Position numbers and translations under genes: made by a program. Below the pieces are notes generated by a model that worked only from the letters and a program-made list of their open reading frames with translations, was not told the DNA's origin and searched no databases. A stretch of DNA of 22,284 nt from the IMG/VR virus record IMGVR_UViG_3300025132_000345, positions 1 through 22,284 of that record. One strand, written 5' to 3'. Shown here one piece after another: positions 13,402-22,284 of this stretch (its first letter is position 1; every line of letters begins with the position of its first letter). This DNA comes from a virus.

Positions 13402-13713
13402 TCATGAGCCTTTTTTCCACTTTTTTGAAGGAGATTTGGTCTTACTAGGACTCCATTTAACACGGTTGGCCCAGTAAGCTGCAGACATTTTGCCCTTTTT
13501 TATGTTCTTGGCGTGTCTTGATTTAAACGCTTTTCTTTGCCCTGCTGTTTGATTTGTCTTAACACCTTGTTGTCCGAAACGAATTGTCTTTACCTTATCG
13601 CCCTCTTTGGCTACGACAATGTGCGATTTTTTAGGATGATTTGGAGTTCTTTTAGGCTTATTAAAACCTGAAACACCTGCTCTTGCGAGTCTAGGATCTT
13701 TCTTCTTAGCCAT
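13402..13713 (-). CDS. Very basic small phage protein (103 aa)
   Basis: About a third of residues are Lys or Arg. It contains D-P-R-L-A-R-A-G-V-S-G-F-N-K-P-K-R-T-P, then I-R-F-G-Q-Q-G-V and S-R-H-A-K-N-I-K-K-G-K-M-S-A-A-Y-W-A-N-R-V-K-W. I recall this last motif from small proteins of marine phages and cyanophages annotated only as domains of unknown function. The charge suggests binding to DNA or RNA, or packing inside the capsid, but no evidence here decides. Last gene transcribed in the minus-strand run; its ATG touches the stop of the gene before it. Confidence 0.8.
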   Translation of the reverse strand: MAKKKDPRLARAGVSGFNKPKRTPNHPKKSHIVVAKEGDKVKTIRFGQQGVKTNQTAGQRKAFKSRHAKNIKKGKMSAAYWANRVKWSPSKTKSPSKKWKKGS

Positions 13714-13970
13714 TATCTCTTCTTCCTTCTAGTCGTTTTCTTCTTGTGTAAGCCATGTCTAGCGTGTTGTTTGCCTTTTCTAGTAGCTTCTCTCTTCTTT
13801 TTGTTGGCTTGTGCTAGTTTTCTCCTGCCAGCAGGTGTTGATTTAAGTCTTTTGATCTTTGCAGAAGGAGCATAAACCTCTCCAGTTTCAGATGATTTCT
13901 TTCCACTTGGAGTTCGCCATTTTTGTTTTGTCCATTTTTTAAGGCTTTTTTGGCTCTTTTTTAGTGCCAT
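13713..13970 (-). CDS. Very basic small phage protein (85 aa)
   Basis: Second of five tandem basic proteins. The motif S-L-K-K-W-T-K-Q-K-W-R-T-P-S-G-K-K-S-S-E-T-G-E-V-Y (about 8-33) is one I remember from phage proteins of the DUF5872 kind. The rest is Lys/Arg-rich low complexity ending in T-T-R-R-K-K-R. Both ends overlap their neighbours by one base (TAATG type), so it is tightly coupled. Nucleic-acid binding is likely from charge; function unknown. Confidence 0.78.
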   Translation of the reverse strand: MALKKSQKSLKKWTKQKWRTPSGKKSSETGEVYAPSAKIKRLKSTPAGRRKLAQANKKKREATRKGKQHARHGLHKKKTTRRKKR

Positions 13971-14161
13971 TATGATCTCTTCTTTCTTTGAGACATGGCT
14001 TTTTTCTTGGCTTTTTTGCTAGGCAATTCACCATAATGGAATAAACGCTTGCTATTTTTTGTGTGTGTTTTGTTTGTGTGAAGCTCTCCATTAGCCATTT
14101 TATGCATTTTTCCATTCCAAACTGTTCCATCTCTTAGATAGTGTTTGACTCCCATACCCAT
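13970..14161 (-). CDS. Small basic phage protein, GVKHYLRDG type (63 aa)
   Basis: Begins MGMGVKHYLRDGTVWNGKMH and continues with M-A-N-G-E-L-H-T-N-K-T-H-T-K-N-S-K-R-L. I recall the pattern V-K-H-Y-x-x-D-G-T, M-H-K-M-x-N-G-E-L-H, K-T-H-T from other phages next to the same basic neighbours, so the set travels together. Rich in Lys and His with a basic tail. It overlaps by one base with the genes on both sides. Function unknown. Confidence 0.78.
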   Translation of the reverse strand: MGMGVKHYLRDGTVWNGKMHKMANGELHTNKTHTKNSKRLFHYGELPSKKAKKKAMSQRKKRS

Positions 14162-14337
14162 TATTTGTAGCCTCCTCCTGCTTTTTTATATGCTTTAGCC
14201 AACATTTGTGCTTTTCTTGCTGACCATTGTCCGGGTTTACCGCCTTTACCGCCTGCTTTTATTCTATTGAAAATACGCTTACGCATTGTCGGTTTCGTGT
14301 AGTTTCCTGCTTTGTTTACTGTAGATTTTTTAGCCAT
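14161..14337 (-). CDS. Small basic phage protein, KPGQWSARKAQ type (58 aa)
   Basis: A 58-codon frame from ATG 14337 to TAA 14161, coupled by TAATG to the gene that follows. It begins MAKKSTVNKAGNYTKPTMRK and ends with G-G-K-P-G-Q-W-S-A-R-K-A-Q-M-L-A-K-A-Y-K-K-A-G-G-G-Y-K, a C-terminus I recall from marine phage proteins. Strongly basic with Gly-rich turns. Function unknown. The well-matched C-terminus and coupling make this a confident call despite its size. Confidence 0.75.
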   Translation of the reverse strand: MAKKSTVNKAGNYTKPTMRKRIFNRIKAGGKGGKPGQWSARKAQMLAKAYKKAGGGYK

Positions 14338-14345
14338 TTTGTAAA

Positions 14346-14570
14346 CTATTTTCGTTTAAACGACCTATTTTTAGATTTAGATACTACTCTTAGATTCTTT
14401 TTACTGTTGTTTTTTGGGTTTCGGTCTTTATGATGAACATCTTTACCATCACCTTTTTTTACTCGACCTGCCTTTACCATTGATCTACGAGCTTTGTTTC
14501 TACCTGCACGATTCTTCTTTTGTTTAGAAGTGCCTTGATAGTTATCGTACTCTTTTCTGTAGTTTCTCAT
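14346..14570 (-). CDS. Basic HNH-like small protein (74 aa)
   Basis: First gene of the basic cluster. The second half has K-D-V-H-H-K-D-R-N-P-K-N-N-S-K-K-N-L-R-V-V-S, which matches the D-x-H-H-K-D-x-x-x-x-N-N-x-x-x-N-L core of small HNH endonucleases. Thus it may nick or cut DNA, though it lacks the zinc cysteines often present. The end, N-R-S-F-K-R-K, includes a GTTTAAAC copy at 14354. I see no Shine-Dalgarno before its ATG; a perfect -10 box sits 3 bp upstream, so the mRNA could be leaderless. Confidence 0.72.
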   Translation of the reverse strand: MRNYRKEYDNYQGTSKQKKNRAGRNKARRSMVKAGRVKKGDGKDVHHKDRNPKNNSKKNLRVVSKSKNRSFKRK

Positions 14571-14606: not shown

Positions 14607-15743
14607 TTAAGTGCCTTGTTTTATATTGATATAAGACTCAGTTCCACCATTGACTCTTACTTGATTTACCTTTCCTTCTTGATCAATTCTTATTGCTGTA
14701 CTGCCATCTTTAGATACTCTAAGCTCTAATTTATCTTGTACTTGTCTAATTAATTTAATTTCAGAGTCATTTACAAAACTAGATATTTGGGTTTCACTAT
14801 CGTAACCAATTTTTGTTCCTTCTACACCTTGATTACCTAAAGAGCCTGAAGCTTTGCTTAGTTCGTCTACTTCTTGTATTACATCAAGCAAATCTTCTAA
14901 AAAATTAGTCGCTAAATAATCAATATCTAACTCAGTGTATTCAAGCTCAGACTCAGAATCTAAAGCATCTTGTTCTAGTTCATCAAACTCAAGAAAATCT
15001 GTATCCAATATATTTGCAGAATTTGATGTACTTGATTCATCGGTTACTGTTTCTCTTTCTTTTGGAGGATTTACGATAAGCATGTTGTCGATCTGATCTA
15101 AAGTCAAATCTAAGATTACCGAAGGAGTTGGAGGACTTTCTAAATTATACACTGTAGTAGCCTCATATGGCTTGTTAAGCACTACTTCACCTAAAGCTGT
15201 ATATACTATAATTTCACCACTTGCCTCGCCTGTTTCGTCAGGCAATAATATTATTAAAGACTCGCCTGTTTCTTTTACAGTAATTGTAAAGTCTGTACCT
15301 CGAATCCCAACAGTGGCTGAATTTGTTCTAATTGTGATGTTATCTTTAGGAATGCGTGGCTTTTTGCTAGATATAAACCTCCCGGTGCCCTTTACAAAGT
15401 TCAAAGCCATACTAGACTTACTAGGGTTAGGATCAAACACAAACTCGTCTATAACGACATTAGAATGCTCTGTGAGTCGTATTGTAGTTTCATCTCTAAA
15501 TGTAACACCCATTCTGCCTTTTGCAGTCTCTAGGCGATCCATAGAGTTTAAAGAAAAGTCTATAGCACTTTCGTATGGTTTATCTCTTACTACTCTTGTT
15601 ATACCATTTAGTTCAGTTATATTGCCTATATCTTCAACAGCTTGTGCTTGTGCCCTGATCGTTTTGCTGCACACACACGCTGCCGTTATTCCCAGAAGAA
15701 GTAATGCGTAACCAGTCATTGTCCAGTGTCGATTGTTGATCAA
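14607..15743 (-). CDS. Secreted FecR-domain protein, probable TTG start (378 aa)
   Basis: I choose TTG at 15743 because AAGGAG lies 8 bases upstream; ATG at 15767 and ATG at 15719 are in frame but have no such site. The N-terminus then shows a signal peptide (hydrophobic G-Y-A-L-L-L-L-G-I-T-A-A, probably cut after A-Q-A). Residues about 40-200 form a FecR domain, including T-I-R-L, F-V-K-G-T-G-R-F, I-R-T-N-S-A-T-V-G-I-R-G-T-D-F and G-E-V-V-L-N. A long acidic region (about 225-300) and a beta-rich C-terminus follow. It is likely periplasmic or exported. It overlaps the curlin-like gene by 110 bases and lies downstream of csgG, so it may be a cargo or accessory of that pore. Confidence 0.75.
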   Translation of the reverse strand: MINNRHWTMTGYALLLLGITAACVCSKTIRAQAQAVEDIGNITELNGITRVVRDKPYESAIDFSLNSMDRLETAKGRMGVTFRDETTIRLTEHSNVVIDEFVFDPNPSKSSMALNFVKGTGRFISSKKPRIPKDNITIRTNSATVGIRGTDFTITVKETGESLIILLPDETGEASGEIIVYTALGEVVLNKPYEATTVYNLESPPTPSVILDLTLDQIDNMLIVNPPKERETVTDESSTSNSANILDTDFLEFDELEQDALDSESELEYTELDIDYLATNFLEDLLDVIQEVDELSKASGSLGNQGVEGTKIGYDSETQISSFVNDSEIKLIRQVQDKLELRVSKDGSTAIRIDQEGKVNQVRVNGGTESYINIKQGT

Positions 15744-16368
15744 TGTCGAAACTCCTTGTATTACCATCGTGTTCTAGCTTGAAGTACCCAGATGCGTATC
15801 CATCCCCGTTGTAATCAACAGTATTAGAATCTCCATCCAAATCAATGTAGTTAGTCGCTGAATCTACATCGAGATCAATATGAACAGTGTTTGAGTCACC
15901 TTGCACTATCGTATCGACATCAGCACCACTAGCTAAAGCATTGGTAGCCAAGTCTAATGTCATAGTATTCGTACTGCCATCCACGTTTACATTTACATTT
16001 GAGTTATCAGCACTGTAGGTGTTAGTCGGATCAACCTGTATCGTATAAGTGTTTGTGTCACCATCAAAATCAAATAATCCAGTAAATGTATCGGAGTTAA
16101 TATCTCCTAACATTTTATTGTTATTACCGATTTGATTTACATCAAGTGTCATTGTTGTTCCATCAAGATCAAATGCAGTCATACTTCCATGTGCACTGTT
16201 TAAACCACCTATAATGTTTCCGCTACCTAATTGTTCTAAATCTATATTTGCTGTTGCTCCAACTTGATCTACATATATTTCATTGTCATCAGAATATGAC
16301 AAGCTGTATGCAAATAAAAATACAAGCATTACAGCAGGATACAACATATTGTTAAAATTATTATTCAT
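15634..16368 (-). CDS. Secreted curlin-like repeat protein (244 aa)
   Basis: A signal peptide (about 1-26, hydrophobic M-L-Y-P-A-V-M-L-V-F-L-F-A, cut near S-Y-S) leads a repetitive mature part rich in Asn, Asp, Gly, Thr and Gln. Units such as D-Q-V-G-A-T-A-N, E-Q-L-G-S-G-N, N-Q-I-G-N-N-N and I-V-Q-G-D-S-N-T follow the curlin pattern Q-x-G-x-x-N, and D-G-D-x-N-T repeats fill the rest. It ends in a Cys-containing tail (S-V-C-V-Q-Q-N-D-Q-G-T). It lies directly after csgG, so it is the best candidate for the substrate secreted by that pore; an amyloid-like beta-solenoid is possible. It is not a canonical five-repeat CsgA. Confidence 0.72.
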   Translation of the reverse strand: MNNNFNNMLYPAVMLVFLFAYSLSYSDDNEIYVDQVGATANIDLEQLGSGNIIGGLNSAHGSMTAFDLDGTTMTLDVNQIGNNNKMLGDINSDTFTGLFDFDGDTNTYTIQVDPTNTYSADNSNVNVNVDGSTNTMTLDLATNALASGADVDTIVQGDSNTVHIDLDVDSATNYIDLDGDSNTVDYNGDGYASGYFKLEHDGNTRSFDIDQQSTLDNDWLRITSSGNNGSVCVQQNDQGTSTSC

Positions 16369-17194
16369 ATTTCCAATATCCTTTTTTTATCCCTATTTTT
16401 ATAATATCTAATACACACTCCTCTATTGCTGATTGTAATACTAGACTTGTTGATTCATTTTGAGCTTTACCATTTTCAACCTCTATTAATCTTTGTCCTT
16501 CAGCCAAAAATCTAAAAACATCTTGTGATATAGCAACACTCAAAAGACTCTTTTGTGCAGAAGTTTCTATTAGTATTTCGCCAGTAGATACAGAAACCAA
16601 TCTCAAACTAACTGTTATTAGATCTTCTCGGTACTGTTTACTACTGCCGATACCTAAATATCTAGCACCTGCACCGCCAGATAATATATTAGTATCATAA
16701 CTCAATACACCTCCTTGCATCAAAAGTCCAGCAAATATCAAAGGTTTTACAGTGCTATCTTCTTCAAAAGAATCCCTTGTTGACCTTATAATCTGCCTCT
16801 CTTTGGTCAAAGAGTCCAAACCTACACGCTCTACAACTGTCCAAAAATTACCATTTCCACTGTGTTTTAATGCGCGAATTAGAAATGCATCTGGAGCTTG
16901 TGATATTGCTGTGCTAAATAAAGCAAACTGACCATTGCTTTTCCTCTGTCCTGTGTAATCTAAAAAACTATTAGGATAAACCGCTACTACAGGTTTTTGC
17001 TTTGCAGGTTTTATATCTCGTAATTCATCAGACTGTAACTCTAATATAGATGTATTTTTGATAACGATGCTAGGAACACCTTTACCATCGAGCATATTTT
17101 TCGATGCACAACTAGAAAGTAAAACTACCGACAGGAATAGAAATACTGGTAACGCTACCATTTTCGTCTGTAATTGTAAGCGTAATAAGTTCAT
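16361..17194 (-). CDS. csgG: CsgG-like curli secretion pore lipoprotein (277 aa)
   Basis: Homologue of CsgG, the nine-subunit outer-membrane channel that exports curli subunits. From ATG 17194 there is a lipoprotein signal with lipobox L-S-S-C (Cys29). Family motifs: V-A-V-Y, D-Y-T-G-Q, F-S-T-A-I-S-Q-A, A-L-K-H-S, V-V-E-R-V-G-L-D-S-L-x-x-E-R-Q-I-I-R, S-G-G-A-G-A-R-Y-L-G-I-G, S-L-R-L-V-S-V-S-T-G-E-I-L, V-F-R-F and A-I-E-x-x-V near the end. These follow E. coli CsgG throughout, and the length is typical. A TTG at 17212 with AAGGA upstream is an alternative start. It overlaps csgF, and its end overlaps the curlin-like gene by 8 bases. Confidence 0.92.
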   Translation of the reverse strand: MNLLRLQLQTKMVALPVFLFLSVVLLSSCASKNMLDGKGVPSIVIKNTSILELQSDELRDIKPAKQKPVVAVYPNSFLDYTGQRKSNGQFALFSTAISQAPDAFLIRALKHSGNGNFWTVVERVGLDSLTKERQIIRSTRDSFEEDSTVKPLIFAGLLMQGGVLSYDTNILSGGAGARYLGIGSSKQYREDLITVSLRLVSVSTGEILIETSAQKSLLSVAISQDVFRFLAEGQRLIEVENGKAQNESTSLVLQSAIEECVLDIIKIGIKKGYWKYE

Positions 17195-17582
17195 TTTCGA
17201 CTTTATATTCAATCGTGTTTCCTTCAAGCTCAAGTTTACCTTCTTTCTGAGGAGTCTCTCCAAATAATTGCTCAACCATCTGTCTTGATAACTGTGCATA
17301 TATTCTGCTTTCTAAATTTCTTATAAATCTAGCAAGAGTAGTATTAGATGCATCTCTAGCTAACTCATCTTTATAAGCCTGTATTTCTTCTTTTAAGGCT
17401 TGTTTTCTACTAGCTTCTTGACTATCTATTGTCAAGTAATGTGAAGATGTGTTTAAACCAGAAAAGCTAGGACTTTTAAATTTAAATAACAACTCATCAG
17501 CATTGCTATAAACAGTAATCAATAATAAAAATATAGCTACATAAACATATATACCTAAAAACCAATGTAAACTATTCTTCAT
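17112..17582 (-). CDS. csgF: CsgF-like curli assembly factor (156 aa)
   Basis: Homologue of CsgF, which docks in the CsgG pore and holds the curli nucleator at the cell surface. I start at the second ATG (17582), because AAGGA is too close to the ATG at 17588. A signal peptide (hydrophobic about 7-25, cut after S-N-A) is followed by L-L-F-K-F-K-S-P-S-F-S-G, matching the pore-inserting N-terminus of E. coli CsgF (TFQFRNPNFGG). A helix with F-I-R-N-L-E-S-R-I-Y-A-Q-L and a C-terminal beta part (L-I-T-L-T-I-T-D-E-N-G-S-V-T-S-I) follow in family order. Gene order csgF-csgG with overlap makes co-expression likely. Confidence 0.87.
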   Translation of the reverse strand: MKNSLHWFLGIYVYVAIFLLLITVYSNADELLFKFKSPSFSGLNTSSHYLTIDSQEASRKQALKEEIQAYKDELARDASNTTLARFIRNLESRIYAQLSRQMVEQLFGETPQKEGKLELEGNTIEYKVENELITLTITDENGSVTSISIPVGSFTF

Positions 17583-17829
17583 TTTCATCCTTCAATTTAT
17601 TCTCTTCTTTTAACTCTAAAACTGTATTTACCTTTTGCTGTAACCTTATCATATCCTGATCTAACAAACGTAACTGGTCGGTAAGCCTAATAATAGTTAC
17701 CTTCATTTCTTGAACAGCAGGATCTATTTTATTAGTAATTGTTTGCCATACAAAATAAACAAAGTAACCTAATCCTGCAACCATAACTATTGGAAAGCCA
17801 AAATCTGAAACTAACTTTACAATATCCAT
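17572..17829 (-). CDS. Membrane-anchored coiled-coil protein, UviB/holin-like (85 aa)
   Basis: One membrane segment (about 11-30, F-G-F-P-I-V-M-V-A-G-L-G-Y-F-V-Y-F-V) is followed by an amphipathic helix with L-D-Q-D-M-I-R-L-Q-Q-K-V-N-T-V-L and a charged tail. Small BhlA/UviB-type proteins have this layout and are linked to lysis or bacteriocin release. The pattern repeats in the protein at 17995-18291, so the two look like duplicates. It overlaps csgF by 11 bases, joining the lysis and curli genes in one transcript. Confidence 0.68.
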   Translation of the reverse strand: MDIVKLVSDFGFPIVMVAGLGYFVYFVWQTITNKIDPAVQEMKVTIIRLTDQLRLLDQDMIRLQQKVNTVLELKEENKLKDENEE

Positions 17830-18011
17830 TACTTAAACTTCTTTTGTATATACTTTATCCCTGCATAAATTGATAATCCATAAACTGCAAATAGAGTTAA
17901 CGATCCAAAGACAATTAAGTAATCTGATGGGTATAGGTATATAAGACCAAATAAACCATCTACAACCGCTTCTGCATCGCCTACAGGAGGTAAATTAATC
18001 TCGCCTTGCAT
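17829..18011 (-). CDS. Small single-pass membrane protein (60 aa)
   Basis: An acidic, Pro-containing N-terminal half (INLPPVGDAEAVVDG) is followed by a long hydrophobic stretch (about 30-53, Y-L-I-V-F-G-S-L-T-L-F-A-V-Y-G-L-S-I-Y-A-G) and a basic end (I-K-Y-I-Q-K-K-F-K). This suggests the C-terminus faces the cytoplasm. It overlaps its neighbours by 1 and 17 bases. It may take part in lysis with the other membrane proteins here. No family recognised. Confidence 0.65.
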   Translation of the reverse strand: MQGEINLPPVGDAEAVVDGLFGLIYLYPSDYLIVFGSLTLFAVYGLSIYAGIKYIQKKFK

Positions 18012-18291
18012 CTATCTTTCCATCTTCAACAAAATTTTCGCTTCTAGCTATTCTTTCTAAATCAGGAGATAGACCTAACGCACTGCTTACACTTGTATCA
18101 ATGCGTATCATGTCATTATTCATTGTTGCTGCTCTTGTAATAAGCATTTTAGATATAGCTTGCACTGTTTGTATTTCGCTGACTAAGCCATCCATCAACT
18201 GTTTCATAATCAAAAATATGAAATAAGCCATGACAAGACCGCCTGCTACAGGCAAACCAAGCTCTGCTATTAATGTAAAACCCTGTTCCAT
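17995..18291 (-). CDS. Membrane-anchored helical protein, paralogue of the 17572 gene (98 aa)
   Basis: Same plan as the 85-aa protein: a membrane segment near the N-terminus (L-G-L-P-V-A-G-G-L-V-M-A-Y-F-I-F-L-I-M) and a helix with M-N-N-D-M-I-R-I-D-T-S-V-S-S-A-L-G-L. It adds a polar tail (L-E-R-I-A-R-S-E-N-F-V-E-D-G-K-I-D-A-R-R-D). The shared D-M-I-R-(L/I)-x-x-x-V-x-x-x-L core points to duplication. It is probably an inner-membrane protein of the lysis region; role unproven. Confidence 0.67.
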   Translation of the reverse strand: MEQGFTLIAELGLPVAGGLVMAYFIFLIMKQLMDGLVSEIQTVQAISKMLITRAATMNNDMIRIDTSVSSALGLSPDLERIARSENFVEDGKIDARRD

Positions 18292-18464
18292 TGCATTTCA
18301 TCAATATTAAGCTCATCTTGATCAATAACCATTTCTAATATTCCAACAACTACACAACCATACATTTCTGCTTTGGCTTCTGCTTCATCAAAACTAGAAG
18401 CAACAACTGTAGGGCCCTCATAATTTTTATCTTTGTAAGTAAACTCAGTTATAAAAACTTTCAT
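18270..18464 (-). CDS. Small soluble protein, same fold family as the 256 gene (64 aa)
   Basis: Beta-rich start (M-K-V-F-I-T-E-F-T-Y) followed by V-V-A-S-S-F-D-E-A-E-A-K-A-E, the same A-x-S-x-D-E-A-x-x-K-A-E signature as the early proteins at 256-456 and 1278-1493. It overlaps the holin-like gene by 4 bases and the next membrane protein by 22. A soluble acidic protein among membrane proteins could be a regulator or partner, but nothing shows which. Function unknown. Confidence 0.65.
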   Translation of the reverse strand: MKVFITEFTYKDKNYEGPTVVASSFDEAEAKAEMYGCVVVGILEMVIDQDELNIDEMQWNRVLH

Positions 18465-18943
18465 TCATCTTTATCCTTTGCATTACTTGCACCAAAATAA
18501 AAACTAATTACAGCACTTGCAAGACCTCCAAGATAGCCTAGAACTAAGTTAATCAATGCTTCGCTGTTCTGCTCTGGTGGTTGTAGTGTTACTAAAAATA
18601 TGTAACCCATAAAACCGCCAACTACAGTTATGCCCATTATTCTAGATGTCCAATCTTTAGAAAACTTACCTCTAGCATCTTGTATGTCTTTTGTTTCTAA
18701 AGCATACAAATCGACATCTAGCTCTTTCATTTTAATCTCAAAATCTGCGTCAATCTTTTTGAGTTCTGCTAGTTGTTCTGGAGTTGCTTGCTGTACTGCC
18801 TGTTCTATTTTCTTAGGTGTAGGCTCACAACCTAATGCTTCTGCTACCATATTAGCTGCCATATTACCCATAGGACCGCCTAATGCTGTACCGATTGTTG
18901 GAGCTACTGCACCTATTATGTTTTTAACAAATTTAAACTTCAT
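18461..18943 (-). CDS. Holin-like membrane protein, 3-TM holin family (160 aa)
   Basis: Gly/Ala-rich N-terminal helix (about 10-38, A-V-A-P-T-I-G-T-A-L-G-G-P-M-G-N-M-A-A), a polar middle with T-P-E-Q-L-A-E-L and I-Q-D-A-R, then W-T-S-R-I-M-G and two C-terminal membrane segments (about 105-122 and 131-150) ending with Y-F-G-A-S-N-A-K-D-K. This matches the 3-TM phage holin family, whose members let the endolysin reach the cell wall. It lies between the endolysin and the other membrane proteins. The endolysin here has no export signal, so a pore-forming holin is needed. Confidence 0.75.
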   Translation of the reverse strand: MKFKFVKNIIGAVAPTIGTALGGPMGNMAANMVAEALGCEPTPKKIEQAVQQATPEQLAELKKIDADFEIKMKELDVDLYALETKDIQDARGKFSKDWTSRIMGITVVGGFMGYIFLVTLQPPEQNSEALINLVLGYLGGLASAVISFYFGASNAKDKDE

Positions 18944-19148: not shown

Positions 19149-19583
19149 TTACTCTCCTTCTTCCTCGAATAATAAAGCCTCTGCTTCTCTTCTACGAGTT
19201 AATCCTTCTAATACTTTTCCATTTGCTTTATTCCATCGTTTAATTTGCTCTGGAACTTCATCATATTTTCTTTGATTTAAAACTTTTAATAACGTACTCG
19301 ATTGTAAGTTTCCTGCACCCAAATTAAATGTCCATGATACAAGTGAATCGAATTGATTTTGTGTCAAAGGCACATGAACTAATCTAAGAACATCATCTTC
19401 AAACTGTCTTAAATCATCTTTTAACATAGCTTCTGCTGTATCCTCAGTTATACGCATATTTTCTACAACATCTTTTGTATGCCCATATCCTATCGTTAAA
19501 ACATTAGCTGCACATAAATAAGGCTCTAATCGACAGCCTTCAAACTCTTTTATTAAATTTATTCCTTTTTCAGATATATTCAT
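19149..19583 (-). CDS. GH24 endolysin (lysozyme), Glu-Cys-Thr triad (144 aa)
   Basis: Cleaves peptidoglycan between N-acetylmuramic acid and N-acetylglucosamine to release progeny. The N-terminus has E-G-C-R-L-E-P-Y-L-C-A-A-N-V-L-T-I-G-Y-G-H-T. Glu15, Cys24 and Thr30 give the spacing Glu-8-(Asp/Cys)-5-Thr of the T4/P21 lysozyme family, here with Cys in the middle place as in P21-type enzymes. Later F-D-S-L-V-S-W-T-F-N-L-G-A-G and R-R-R-E-A-E are also family features. No signal peptide or SAR segment is seen, so it should depend on the holin. Length is typical. Confidence 0.93.
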   Translation of the reverse strand: MNISEKGINLIKEFEGCRLEPYLCAANVLTIGYGHTKDVVENMRITEDTAEAMLKDDLRQFEDDVLRLVHVPLTQNQFDSLVSWTFNLGAGNLQSSTLLKVLNQRKYDEVPEQIKRWNKANGKVLEGLTRRREAEALLFEEEGE

Positions 19584-19584
19584 T

Positions 19585-22284
19585 TTATTTTGACCTTTGT
19601 TTATCGCTTTTTACTTTACCCACTAAATCAGAATCTTCTGCATCAAACAACTCTAATCTTGATTTCATAAATGATATTTTTTCTCTCCTATCTAAAATCG
19701 CTTCATCATAAGAACTTTTTCTAGTATTTCTATCCTGAACACTTAAACTTTCATCTCTTGCCATTCTTCTTCTAGCAGCCTTCAAATCATTAATTTCTTT
19801 TTCTAACATTTTTATTGCCATTTCATTTTGCTTAGGATCTATAGCAAAGATGTTTAAACCTATAAACTTTAAAAGTGCTTGATTAATAGTATTTCTATTT
19901 TTATCATTTATTTCACCAGACTCTTGCACTGCACTAATTAGTCTATTTGTCGCGCCATATTCAGTATGTAAAAATGAGGGCAAGAAAAACTGATTCAATG
20001 CATATTGAACATAACTAACTACTTTACCATCTTTTTTAAATATACCGGGTATTGAAAGCTCAAAATCTTTATCAGTTTCTATGAATAAAGGCTCACCTTC
20101 TCTTGCTATATTCCTTTTCAAAAATGGATCTGTATTAGTAAACAAACCTGATAATGACCATGCAGGACCACCAAATAAACCTACAGTTCTTAAAATTTCT
20201 CCTAAATCAAAATCTTCTGCTTGTTGCTCACCTGATATTGTTTTTTTAGCTTTGTAAGCTTGTTCTAGAAGTTGAGTTATAAAACCATGTGGCAATATAT
20301 ATCCTAAATCAAGAAACTGCATTCTGCCTGCATCATCTCTAAATGGTATAGGAAAAGTACCAAAGTCATTCGTATAGGATGGTAATAATTGTTTTACTTT
20401 TTCATAATCATCATCATCAATATCAAACATATGCATAAATAATTGTGGCAATACATACATCATAGCTGCATATGGTGCTAATCTAAATGGATTATTTAAT
20501 GCAACATCTATTAATTTAGGAGTCACTTTATACATAAATGTTAAGAAAGGAATACCGATAGGACTTGTTCTTAATCCTCTAACTGTAGGAGATACTAATG
20601 AATAATCAAACAATGCATCTTGTGCAATCAAATATGCTTCATCTGCATTCTTATTTTGATTTTCCATCATTTCTATTGCCATAGCAGTTTTACCCATAAC
20701 TTCTATGTTTTGATATAAAAATGAAGCTTTGTTAGCTAATCTTCTCCATCCTTTCAAATGCAACCAAGAAAGAATACCTAATTCATTGATTGATCTTTCT
20801 GTTGTAAATTCTTTAAAATCTTCTGCCCATCTAAACAATTCAGCTTCTGTAAATGAAGTTTCAGCTACACCTCTATCTAATAAAGCTTTGTAATGCTTAG
20901 AATTAGCCATATCTCCTTTTTTGTAAGCTATCATTTCATTAACAGCTTTATACATATTAGGCAGTATTCTTCTTATAGGCATACCAGAAAGATTCATTAG
21001 TATTGCGTTTGACATTGTGTTTCTTGCTACTGTAGGAGGATTCAATGGAACTTTTATTAACTTCCATGTAGATGTCAATTGTCTGGCTAATTTACCTGCT
21101 TTTACATAATTATTATCACCCCAAGCTGTATAACTTATAGATGATATTATATCTTCATATATACCTGATCTAACTGCTTTACCTGCCATAAGACCATACA
21201 ATCTATTGTTAGGAACTCTTTTAAATCCTTCAGGTGCTTGAAACCTAGATTCACTTTGTTCTTGGTTAAATATATCTTCAGGTCTAATATCATATGCCTC
21301 TGCATATTTGTCTCTAGCTTGATTAGCAACTACCAACATATCATCAGCTTCTTTTAGCATTTTTGCTTTTCTTTCAGGATCTCTATCTAAATACTGTGCT
21401 ATTTCTCTGTATTGTTTTTGTTGTTCATATAGCCAGAAAAAACTAACTTTTTTACCATCATATTCAACATCAGCCAAATCGCCATCAAGAGTCCATTGTC
21501 TGTTTTTTGCTATTGAGTTATAAAACTCTAGCATTGCTAAGTCTCTCATTGGTCTTTGTATTGCTCTAGACACCAAAAACTCAGGAGCTAATTCATCAAT
21601 TACTGTTAATGAGTCTGATGCATCTTCTTTTCTTCTTTTAGCATAACTTCTAGCATCACCAGCAGGATTTTTCAAAACATGCTCTATATACAGTCTAGGC
21701 AAGTAAGATCTTTTATTTATCTCAAAAGAGCTTGCAGGAATAATATTAGCTTCTACTAACTGTTGTCCTAGTCTTTCTATAATATCTTTAGCATCTAAAG
21801 CTGCTTTTGCCATTCTAGGATTTACATCTTTTAACTGTTTATACAAAGCCAACTCTCCATTTTTAGGAGATGTACTTAAATATTTAAATAATAATGCTCT
21901 TACTTCTTGGTGATTGCTTTTTCTTAATGGATTATTTTTATCTAAATAAGGTGCTATATCCTTTCTAAGCTTCAATGCTATGCGTTCTGCTTGATTAAAT
22001 ATACCTAGTGCCCTACCTCTATTCAAAAGATAATCTCTTTGCATAGGAACACCATATAAAGGATCAAACATCTTACTGTTCCCAACAAAATTAGAAATAC
22101 TTTCTCTAATATTTTTAGATAAATTATCTCTTTCTTTTTTACCAGAATTGACTACAGCCATTCTTCTAGCTTGAGTAGATCCTAAAGCCATAGAATCTTC
22201 TGACTCTTGTCTCATTTCTTCTGTTATCGGAAAAAATCTCAATGCATTAGTAACATTAGATGTTAATCTTTGTATTTGTGCCAT
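19585..22284 (-). CDS. Large probable virion protein, reaches the window edge (899 aa or more)
   Basis: The frame stays open to the last base; its first visible codon is an ATG exactly at 22284-22282, so it may be a true start or the cut end of a longer gene. The protein is mostly helical and charged, with L-N-P-P-T-V-A-R-N-T-M-S-N near the middle, a hydrophobic segment (Y-A-A-M-M-Y-V-L-P-Q-L-F) near residue 610, and a C-terminal part with L-P-S-F-L-H-T-E-Y-G-A-T-N. It recalls the C-terminal regions of large polyvalent or internal virion proteins of podovirus-like phages (LPD38-like), which are ejected into the host. It lies 1 bp upstream of the endolysin gene. The last GTTTAAAC copy (19852) encodes its Gly-Leu-Asn. 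Confidence 0.6.
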   Translation of the reverse strand: MAQIQRLTSNVTNALRFFPITEEMRQESEDSMALGSTQARRMAVVNSGKKERDNLSKNIRESISNFVGNSKMFDPLYGVPMQRDYLLNRGRALGIFNQAERIALKLRKDIAPYLDKNNPLRKSNHQEVRALLFKYLSTSPKNGELALYKQLKDVNPRMAKAALDAKDIIERLGQQLVEANIIPASSFEINKRSYLPRLYIEHVLKNPAGDARSYAKRRKEDASDSLTVIDELAPEFLVSRAIQRPMRDLAMLEFYNSIAKNRQWTLDGDLADVEYDGKKVSFFWLYEQQKQYREIAQYLDRDPERKAKMLKEADDMLVVANQARDKYAEAYDIRPEDIFNQEQSESRFQAPEGFKRVPNNRLYGLMAGKAVRSGIYEDIISSISYTAWGDNNYVKAGKLARQLTSTWKLIKVPLNPPTVARNTMSNAILMNLSGMPIRRILPNMYKAVNEMIAYKKGDMANSKHYKALLDRGVAETSFTEAELFRWAEDFKEFTTERSINELGILSWLHLKGWRRLANKASFLYQNIEVMGKTAMAIEMMENQNKNADEAYLIAQDALFDYSLVSPTVRGLRTSPIGIPFLTFMYKVTPKLIDVALNNPFRLAPYAAMMYVLPQLFMHMFDIDDDDYEKVKQLLPSYTNDFGTFPIPFRDDAGRMQFLDLGYILPHGFITQLLEQAYKAKKTISGEQQAEDFDLGEILRTVGLFGGPAWSLSGLFTNTDPFLKRNIAREGEPLFIETDKDFELSIPGIFKKDGKVVSYVQYALNQFFLPSFLHTEYGATNRLISAVQESGEINDKNRNTINQALLKFIGLNIFAIDPKQNEMAIKMLEKEINDLKAARRRMARDESLSVQDRNTRKSSYDEAILDRREKISFMKSRLELFDAEDSDLVGKVKSDKQRSK

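Follow-up and report, generated by a model that had tools for sequence, protein, structure and literature searches.

A curli-type secretion module with a curlin-like protein and an exported FecR-domain protein in an uncultured marine phage

An uncultured marine phage appears, from its sequence, to encode a curli-type (type VIII) secretion module made up of homologues of CsgF and CsgG, a curlin-like secreted protein and an exported FecR-domain protein. We consider it likely that the module secretes a fibre late in infection. What was observed is homology, the order and obligate linkage of the genes, export signals recognized by eye, purifying selection and a strand-rich, solenoid-like prediction for the curlin-like protein; from these we infer late timing, secretion and fibre formation. 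The system itself has been published before, and the phage described here is a new carrier lineage, for which the labels of the parts are corrected.

Source and carrier lineage

The window, meaning the whole stretch of DNA that was analysed, is IMG/VR record IMGVR_UViG_3300025132_000345, a linear fragment of 22,284 bp from an uncultured marine phage. A near-identical contig of 59,857 bp (L003) carries podovirus-type genes, including a portal with about 40 % identity to those of HTVC023P, HTVC027P and 023Pt_psg01, which share 51-63 % among themselves. Judged by these sequences, the carrier is a podovirus-like lineage of about 60 kb that lies outside the cultured HTVC023P type. Searching the phage records at near identity retrieved nothing related to the window. 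No tRNA genes were found, and promoter and terminator counts showed no excess over shuffles. In L003 the 899 aa ORF at 19585-22284 is part of a longer protein (2,913 aa) with no assigned function, of which it forms the C-terminal end; every contig retrieved with the 899 aa protein has the module if it reaches far enough.

Organization of the gene block

The genes encoding CsgF, CsgG, the curlin-like protein and the FecR-domain protein are arranged head to tail on the minus strand between 14607 and 17588. A preliminary description of the window had placed the four genes in a single direction, and translation and Pfam matches confirm that all are on the minus strand. The span given there was also correct apart from the start of csgF, which is at 17588 and not at 17582. 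The genes had been described as overlapping or adjacent, and the coordinates, with the likely starts taken, give successive overlaps of 50, 8 and 86 bp.

Upstream of csgF, and also on the minus strand, are two copies of a gene that we call TMcc (phrog_18771), whose products are 85-116 aa long with one membrane segment and a coil. Copy 1 (17995-18291) encodes 98 aa and copy 2 (17572-17829) encodes 85 aa, with one transmembrane segment and a coil. Between them is a gene for a 60 aa membrane protein (17829-18011, minus strand), which is found in the window's clade. Further upstream are a 160 aa protein (18461-18943, minus strand; phrog_1544, function unknown in PHROGs), a holin-like candidate with two C-terminal transmembrane segments by eye, and a phage lysozyme (endolysin) of 144 aa (19149-19583, minus strand; PF00959, 2.3e-50; phrog_7, 1.4e-62). 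The module is on the same strand as the lysozyme and structural genes, and in the window's lineage it is preceded on the late strand by the genes for lysozyme and membrane proteins.

The CsgF and CsgG homologues

In bacterial curli systems CsgG, with CsgF, forms the outer-membrane exit for amyloid curli, and in E. coli the N-terminal segment of CsgF enters the CsgG pore. Profile searches bear out the identification of both proteins in the window. The CsgF homologue (17112-17588, minus strand) has 158 aa, including a signal peptide, and matches PF10614 (E 3.9e-20) with 72.8 bits against a cut-off of 25.8 bits, and phrog_35372 (7e-42). Its profile aligns with E. coli CsgF of the CsgG:CsgF structures across the N-terminal segment (E 0.0012), where F-x-S-P-x-F-x-G is conserved. 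The CsgG ORF extends from 16361 to 17299, with a likely start at 17161 giving a lipoprotein of 266 aa (16361-17161, minus strand). This protein matches PF03783 (E 1.1e-45), its profile matches the solved structure of E. coli CsgG (3.5e-66), and the cysteine of its lipobox, LLSSC, is invariant in 25 aligned relatives. Among the positions that we take to be the constriction residues of E. coli CsgG, Y51 and N55 are replaced in the alignment and F56 is kept. In PHROGs, CsgF, CsgG and the FecR protein fall in families of unknown function.

The window encodes two hallmarks of type VIII secretion, a CsgG lipoprotein pore and a CsgF with a pore-entering N-terminal segment; the periplasmic gate CsgE had no match among the scanned module proteins. 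The preliminary description had noted that CsgE, CsgC, CsgD and CsgB were missing. In agreement with this, the first three are absent among the Pfam and PHROG matches of the scanned window proteins and no separate CsgB was found. CsgE is not essential for curli (PMC7029224), and the pelagiphage modules are also without it (PMC9599517). A CsgG match in a Salmonella phage record (OR851715) was set aside, the record being unannotated and only 1499 bp long.

The curlin-like protein

The presumed substrate of CsgG is a secreted protein of 244 aa (15634-16368, minus strand), recognized as curlin-like by a ladder of Q, G and N residues, by its AF2 model and by Curlin_rpt matches in its relatives. The ladder is formed by invariant positions of the alignment, and G-x-x-N occurs on average 7.7 times per protein compared with 2.6 times in shuffles (about threefold). 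The spacing of G-x-x-N is uneven and the C-terminal end carries two conserved cysteines. The window protein alone fails the Pfam curlin repeat PF07012 (Curlin_rpt). Seven of the 30 aligned homologues match this family at E<=0.1 (best 8.6e-06, in Melnitz), some relatives exceed its curated cut-off, and the homologues in HTVC008M and Melnitz are recognized curlins. The AF2 model has a mean pLDDT of 85 with strands throughout, and its strand pattern indicates a probable beta-solenoid. A Foldseek search of the PDB with this model gave nothing significant, CsgA fibrils included. The second curlin of HTVC008M (L082:8540-9865) is a fusion of a PA14 domain and curlin repeats, which suggests an adhesive tip.

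The FecR-domain protein

The FecR ORF extends from 14607 to 15767, with a likely start at 15719 giving an exported protein of 370 aa (14607-15719, minus strand). PF04773 is matched by the window protein (E 1.6e-11) and by 32 of 32 relatives, in which no other Pfam family was convincingly matched and no anti-sigma N-domain was present. PupR, an anti-sigma regulator, has a periplasmic domain that the model of the FecR domain matches (1.6e-4); the full model is weak overall (pLDDT 64.5). FecR anti-sigma regulators combine a cytoplasmic N-domain with an anchor in the inner membrane and have an ECF sigma factor as partner. Because the protein starts with a signal peptide and is without the cytoplasmic anti-sigma part, a role as an anti-sigma regulator is unsupported and iron-dependent regulation through it appears unlikely. 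The published label 'iron-dependent regulator' looks wrong for a protein of this architecture.

The C-terminal strands end in phi-x-phi-x-Q in all 32 relatives, and Q-x-G-x-x-N lies within the last 32 residues in 16 of the 32, the relatives not being independent. A curlin-like nucleator at the C-terminus was considered and kept as a lead only: a profile-profile comparison of curlin and FecR was not significant, and the motif is missing at the C-termini of the bacterial FecR proteins examined. The overlap of the curlin and FecR genes (15634-15719) is out of frame and, with the likely FecR start, measures exactly 86 bp in 55 of the 72 loci surveyed.

Linkage and selection

IMG/VR was surveyed three times, using the window CsgG, a FecR profile and a CsgG profile. 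Each survey took the best 80 loci, so the surveys describe near relatives; contigs are partly shared between them and the denominators are loci with enough flank. With the window CsgG, CsgF was found in 76/76 loci, TMcc in 73/73, curlin in 73/73, FecR in 60/60 and the cyclase in 28/42, counts that include the window, HTVC008M and Melnitz. The FecR profile gave curlin in 63/63, CsgG in 55/55, CsgF in 49/49, TMcc in 47/48 and the cyclase in 30/54, and the CsgG profile gave CsgF in 60/60, TMcc in 56/56, curlin in 59/59, FecR in 55/55 and the cyclase in 31/43. The link of the substrate and FecR genes to the pore, proposed from the window, thus holds in every survey locus that has csgFG and enough flank, and because none of these loci is without the repeat and FecR genes, chance co-occurrence is excluded. 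The block is one module. Its core is TMcc-CsgF-CsgG-curlin-FecR, and the cyclase is optional and absent from the window.

The four genes, TMcc and the gene for the 60 aa protein gave pairwise dN/dS values of 0.04-0.21 against L003, L006 and L008, a range that covers computable comparisons with amino-acid changes only; four comparisons of curlin or TMcc had zero amino-acid change and in two L008 comparisons synonymous sites were saturated. Values were 0.08-0.12 for curlin and 0.06-0.14 for the 60 aa protein, and TMcc copy 1 is 100 % identical in amino acids to its counterparts in L003 and L006 at a dS of about 0.4. The module genes are under purifying selection.

The TMcc proteins

Sensor histidine kinases have HisKA/HATPase domains and a phospho-acceptor His, whereas TMcc has no Pfam kinase match and no conserved histidine. 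From position and copy number, we infer that these genes are the 'HK' genes of Wittmers et al. (2022) (PMC9599517), and the published label 'histidine kinase' for the upstream genes looks wrong on sequence grounds. Doubt about the 'HK' and FecR-regulator labels weakens the case for iron regulation. Among phage records TMcc occurs only in six, all of them csg-bearing, and in a TMcc search of IMG/VR either CsgF or CsgG was also present in 72 of 73 informative loci. The exception (L360, 3203-4781) has a small membrane protein and, after two TMcc genes, lysozyme; the 8.8 kb examined of this 11.4 kb contig contain no csg gene. We regard TMcc as an overlooked and testable partner of the curli module. 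There is a slim chance that the two TMcc proteins serve the module as its own holin-like lysis component, coupling fibre release to lysis; if so, fibres and pore would be produced together with the lysis genes, and the bursting cell would leave an amyloid net that keeps virions near new hosts.

One TMcc-bearing contig, L089, is binned as Sphingobacteriales and has phage-type genes such as a clamp loader, so that a misbinned phage is the probable explanation. The same may apply to L090, L093 and L124.

Relationship to known systems

A tblastn search of 50,697 phage records found the genes in Pelagibacter phage HTVC008M and in Melnitz methylophages, and the curli module is widespread among ocean viruses. 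The preliminary description had mentioned csgF/csgG homologues in some marine phages, and these are on record for HTVC008M, Melnitz and pelagimyophages (PMC9599517, PMC7029224, PMC9004378). Zaragoza-Solas et al. (2020) described csgF/csgG in pelagimyophages (PMC7029224) and Buchholz et al. (2022) in the Methylophilales phage Melnitz (PMC9004378). The linked substrate and FecR genes, which had been singled out for attention, are not new in pelagiphages: in nine podoviruses of the HTVC023P type, and also in pelagimyophages, Wittmers et al. (2022) reported the complete module with its CsgA/B-type repeats and FecR, and they found pelagiphage curli genes expressed in ocean metatranscriptomes (PMC9599517).

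The window shares with the pelagiphage module (Wittmers et al., 2022; HTVC008M) the order of one or two small membrane proteins, CsgF, CsgG, curlin and FecR. HTVC008M (KC465899) and Melnitz have a second curlin and a CHASE2 adenylate cyclase as neighbouring genes, whereas the window has neither, and its lineage has the divergent portal described above. CsgF, CsgG, curlin and FecR of Melnitz are homologous to those of the window, with CsgG, FecR and curlin 35-44 % identical where BLAST aligned them. Melnitz was described as lacking csgA/B (PMC9004378), but its record annotates two curlin repeat proteins; the FecR gene is annotated there as well.

Operons with CsgF-CsgG-curlin-FecR like those of the window also occur in Caulobacterales (Hyphomonas sp. 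TMED17 and Caulobacteraceae MAGs). In contrast with the window, these have a CHASE2-type cyclase, chromosomal neighbours and no TMcc. In the CsgG tree the phages and the Hyphomonas sp. TMED17 and Caulobacteraceae MAG operons form one clade (100/99, midpoint root). Only one of 299 Caulobacterales genomes was matched in the FecR profile search, and Caulobacterales chromosomes with the CsgF-CsgG-curlin-FecR-cyclase operon are rare. The E. coli system (csgBAC-csgDEFG) has the CsgG pore and CsgF N-terminal segment in common with the window; CsgE, CsgC, CsgD and a separate CsgB were not found in the window, which has the FecR protein in addition.

Proposed function

According to the mechanism that we favour, CsgG would assemble as a lipoprotein pore in the outer membrane and CsgF would place its conserved N-terminal segment in this pore. 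The curlin-like protein would cross the inner membrane via host Sec, exit through CsgG and assemble on the infected cell into beta-solenoid (amyloid-like) fibres. Exported to the periplasm or the cell surface, the FecR-domain protein would play an accessory part there (as anchor, nucleator or gate) rather than regulate a sigma factor. The Pfam and structure-sequence matches, the linkage of pore and substrate, the low dN/dS values, the curlin model and the Curlin_rpt matches of relatives, the homologous chromosomal operons, the strand shared with lysozyme and structural genes, and the metatranscriptomic expression of pelagiphage curli genes (PMC9599517) support this mechanism. Homology, linkage and strand likewise favour the earlier proposal of a phage-encoded CsgG/CsgF outer-membrane pore with its own fibre-like substrate, transcribed in the late direction. 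Counting against the favoured mechanism are the failure of the window curlin to match Curlin_rpt, the curlin model without a significant structural match, the failure to find CsgE and a separate CsgB, the replaced Y51 and N55, and the finding that Melnitz-infected cultures did not clump (PMC9004378). The benefit to the phage would most likely be that virions, debris and infected cells stick to hosts nearby, or that the cell is masked from other phages. The sequence favours neither of these, nor any one of the roles suggested in the preliminary description (surface alteration, superinfection exclusion, aggregation or release). It is unusual for a phage to equip its host with both a secretion system and an amyloid fibre that the host may lack.

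Buchholz et al. (2022) proposed for Melnitz that the genes act in lysis or egress (PMC9004378). CsgG/CsgF would then be repurposed as an outer-membrane channel that times or completes lysis, the repeat protein being secondary. Consistent with this, the module of the window's lineage directly follows the genes for lysozyme and membrane proteins, about half of the loci with room have either lysozyme or the membrane protein phrog_1544 at most 4 kb upstream, and the otherwise csg-tied TMcc genes adjoin lysozyme in L360. However, the substrate and FecR genes are kept as strictly as the pore and are under purifying selection, the annotated neighbours of the module in HTVC008M and Melnitz are not lysis genes, and the premise of missing csgA/B is contradicted both here and by PMC9599517. 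We consider a lysis pore unlikely. Slightly less likely again is a reading in which the curlin-like protein, instead of building fibres, is secreted as a monomeric beta-solenoid and serves as a decoy or adhesin, covering the cell and blocking receptors (superinfection exclusion). The uneven G-x-x-N spacing, the two terminal cysteines and the passing of Curlin_rpt by only part of the family would fit such a protein, but the recognized curlins of HTVC008M and Melnitz and the retention of CsgF argue for a fibre. Uptake of large cofactors or siderophores during infection through a CsgG channel left ungated without CsgE, as proposed in PMC7029224 and PMC9599517, agrees with the failure to find CsgE but is very improbable, leaving the obligate curlin gene and CsgF unexplained and involving a FecR protein without the cytoplasmic part of an iron-signalling regulator.

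Finally, the region beyond the FecR gene (13402-14570) contains a cluster of genes for small, very basic proteins, and the product of 14346-14570 is HNH-like by eye.
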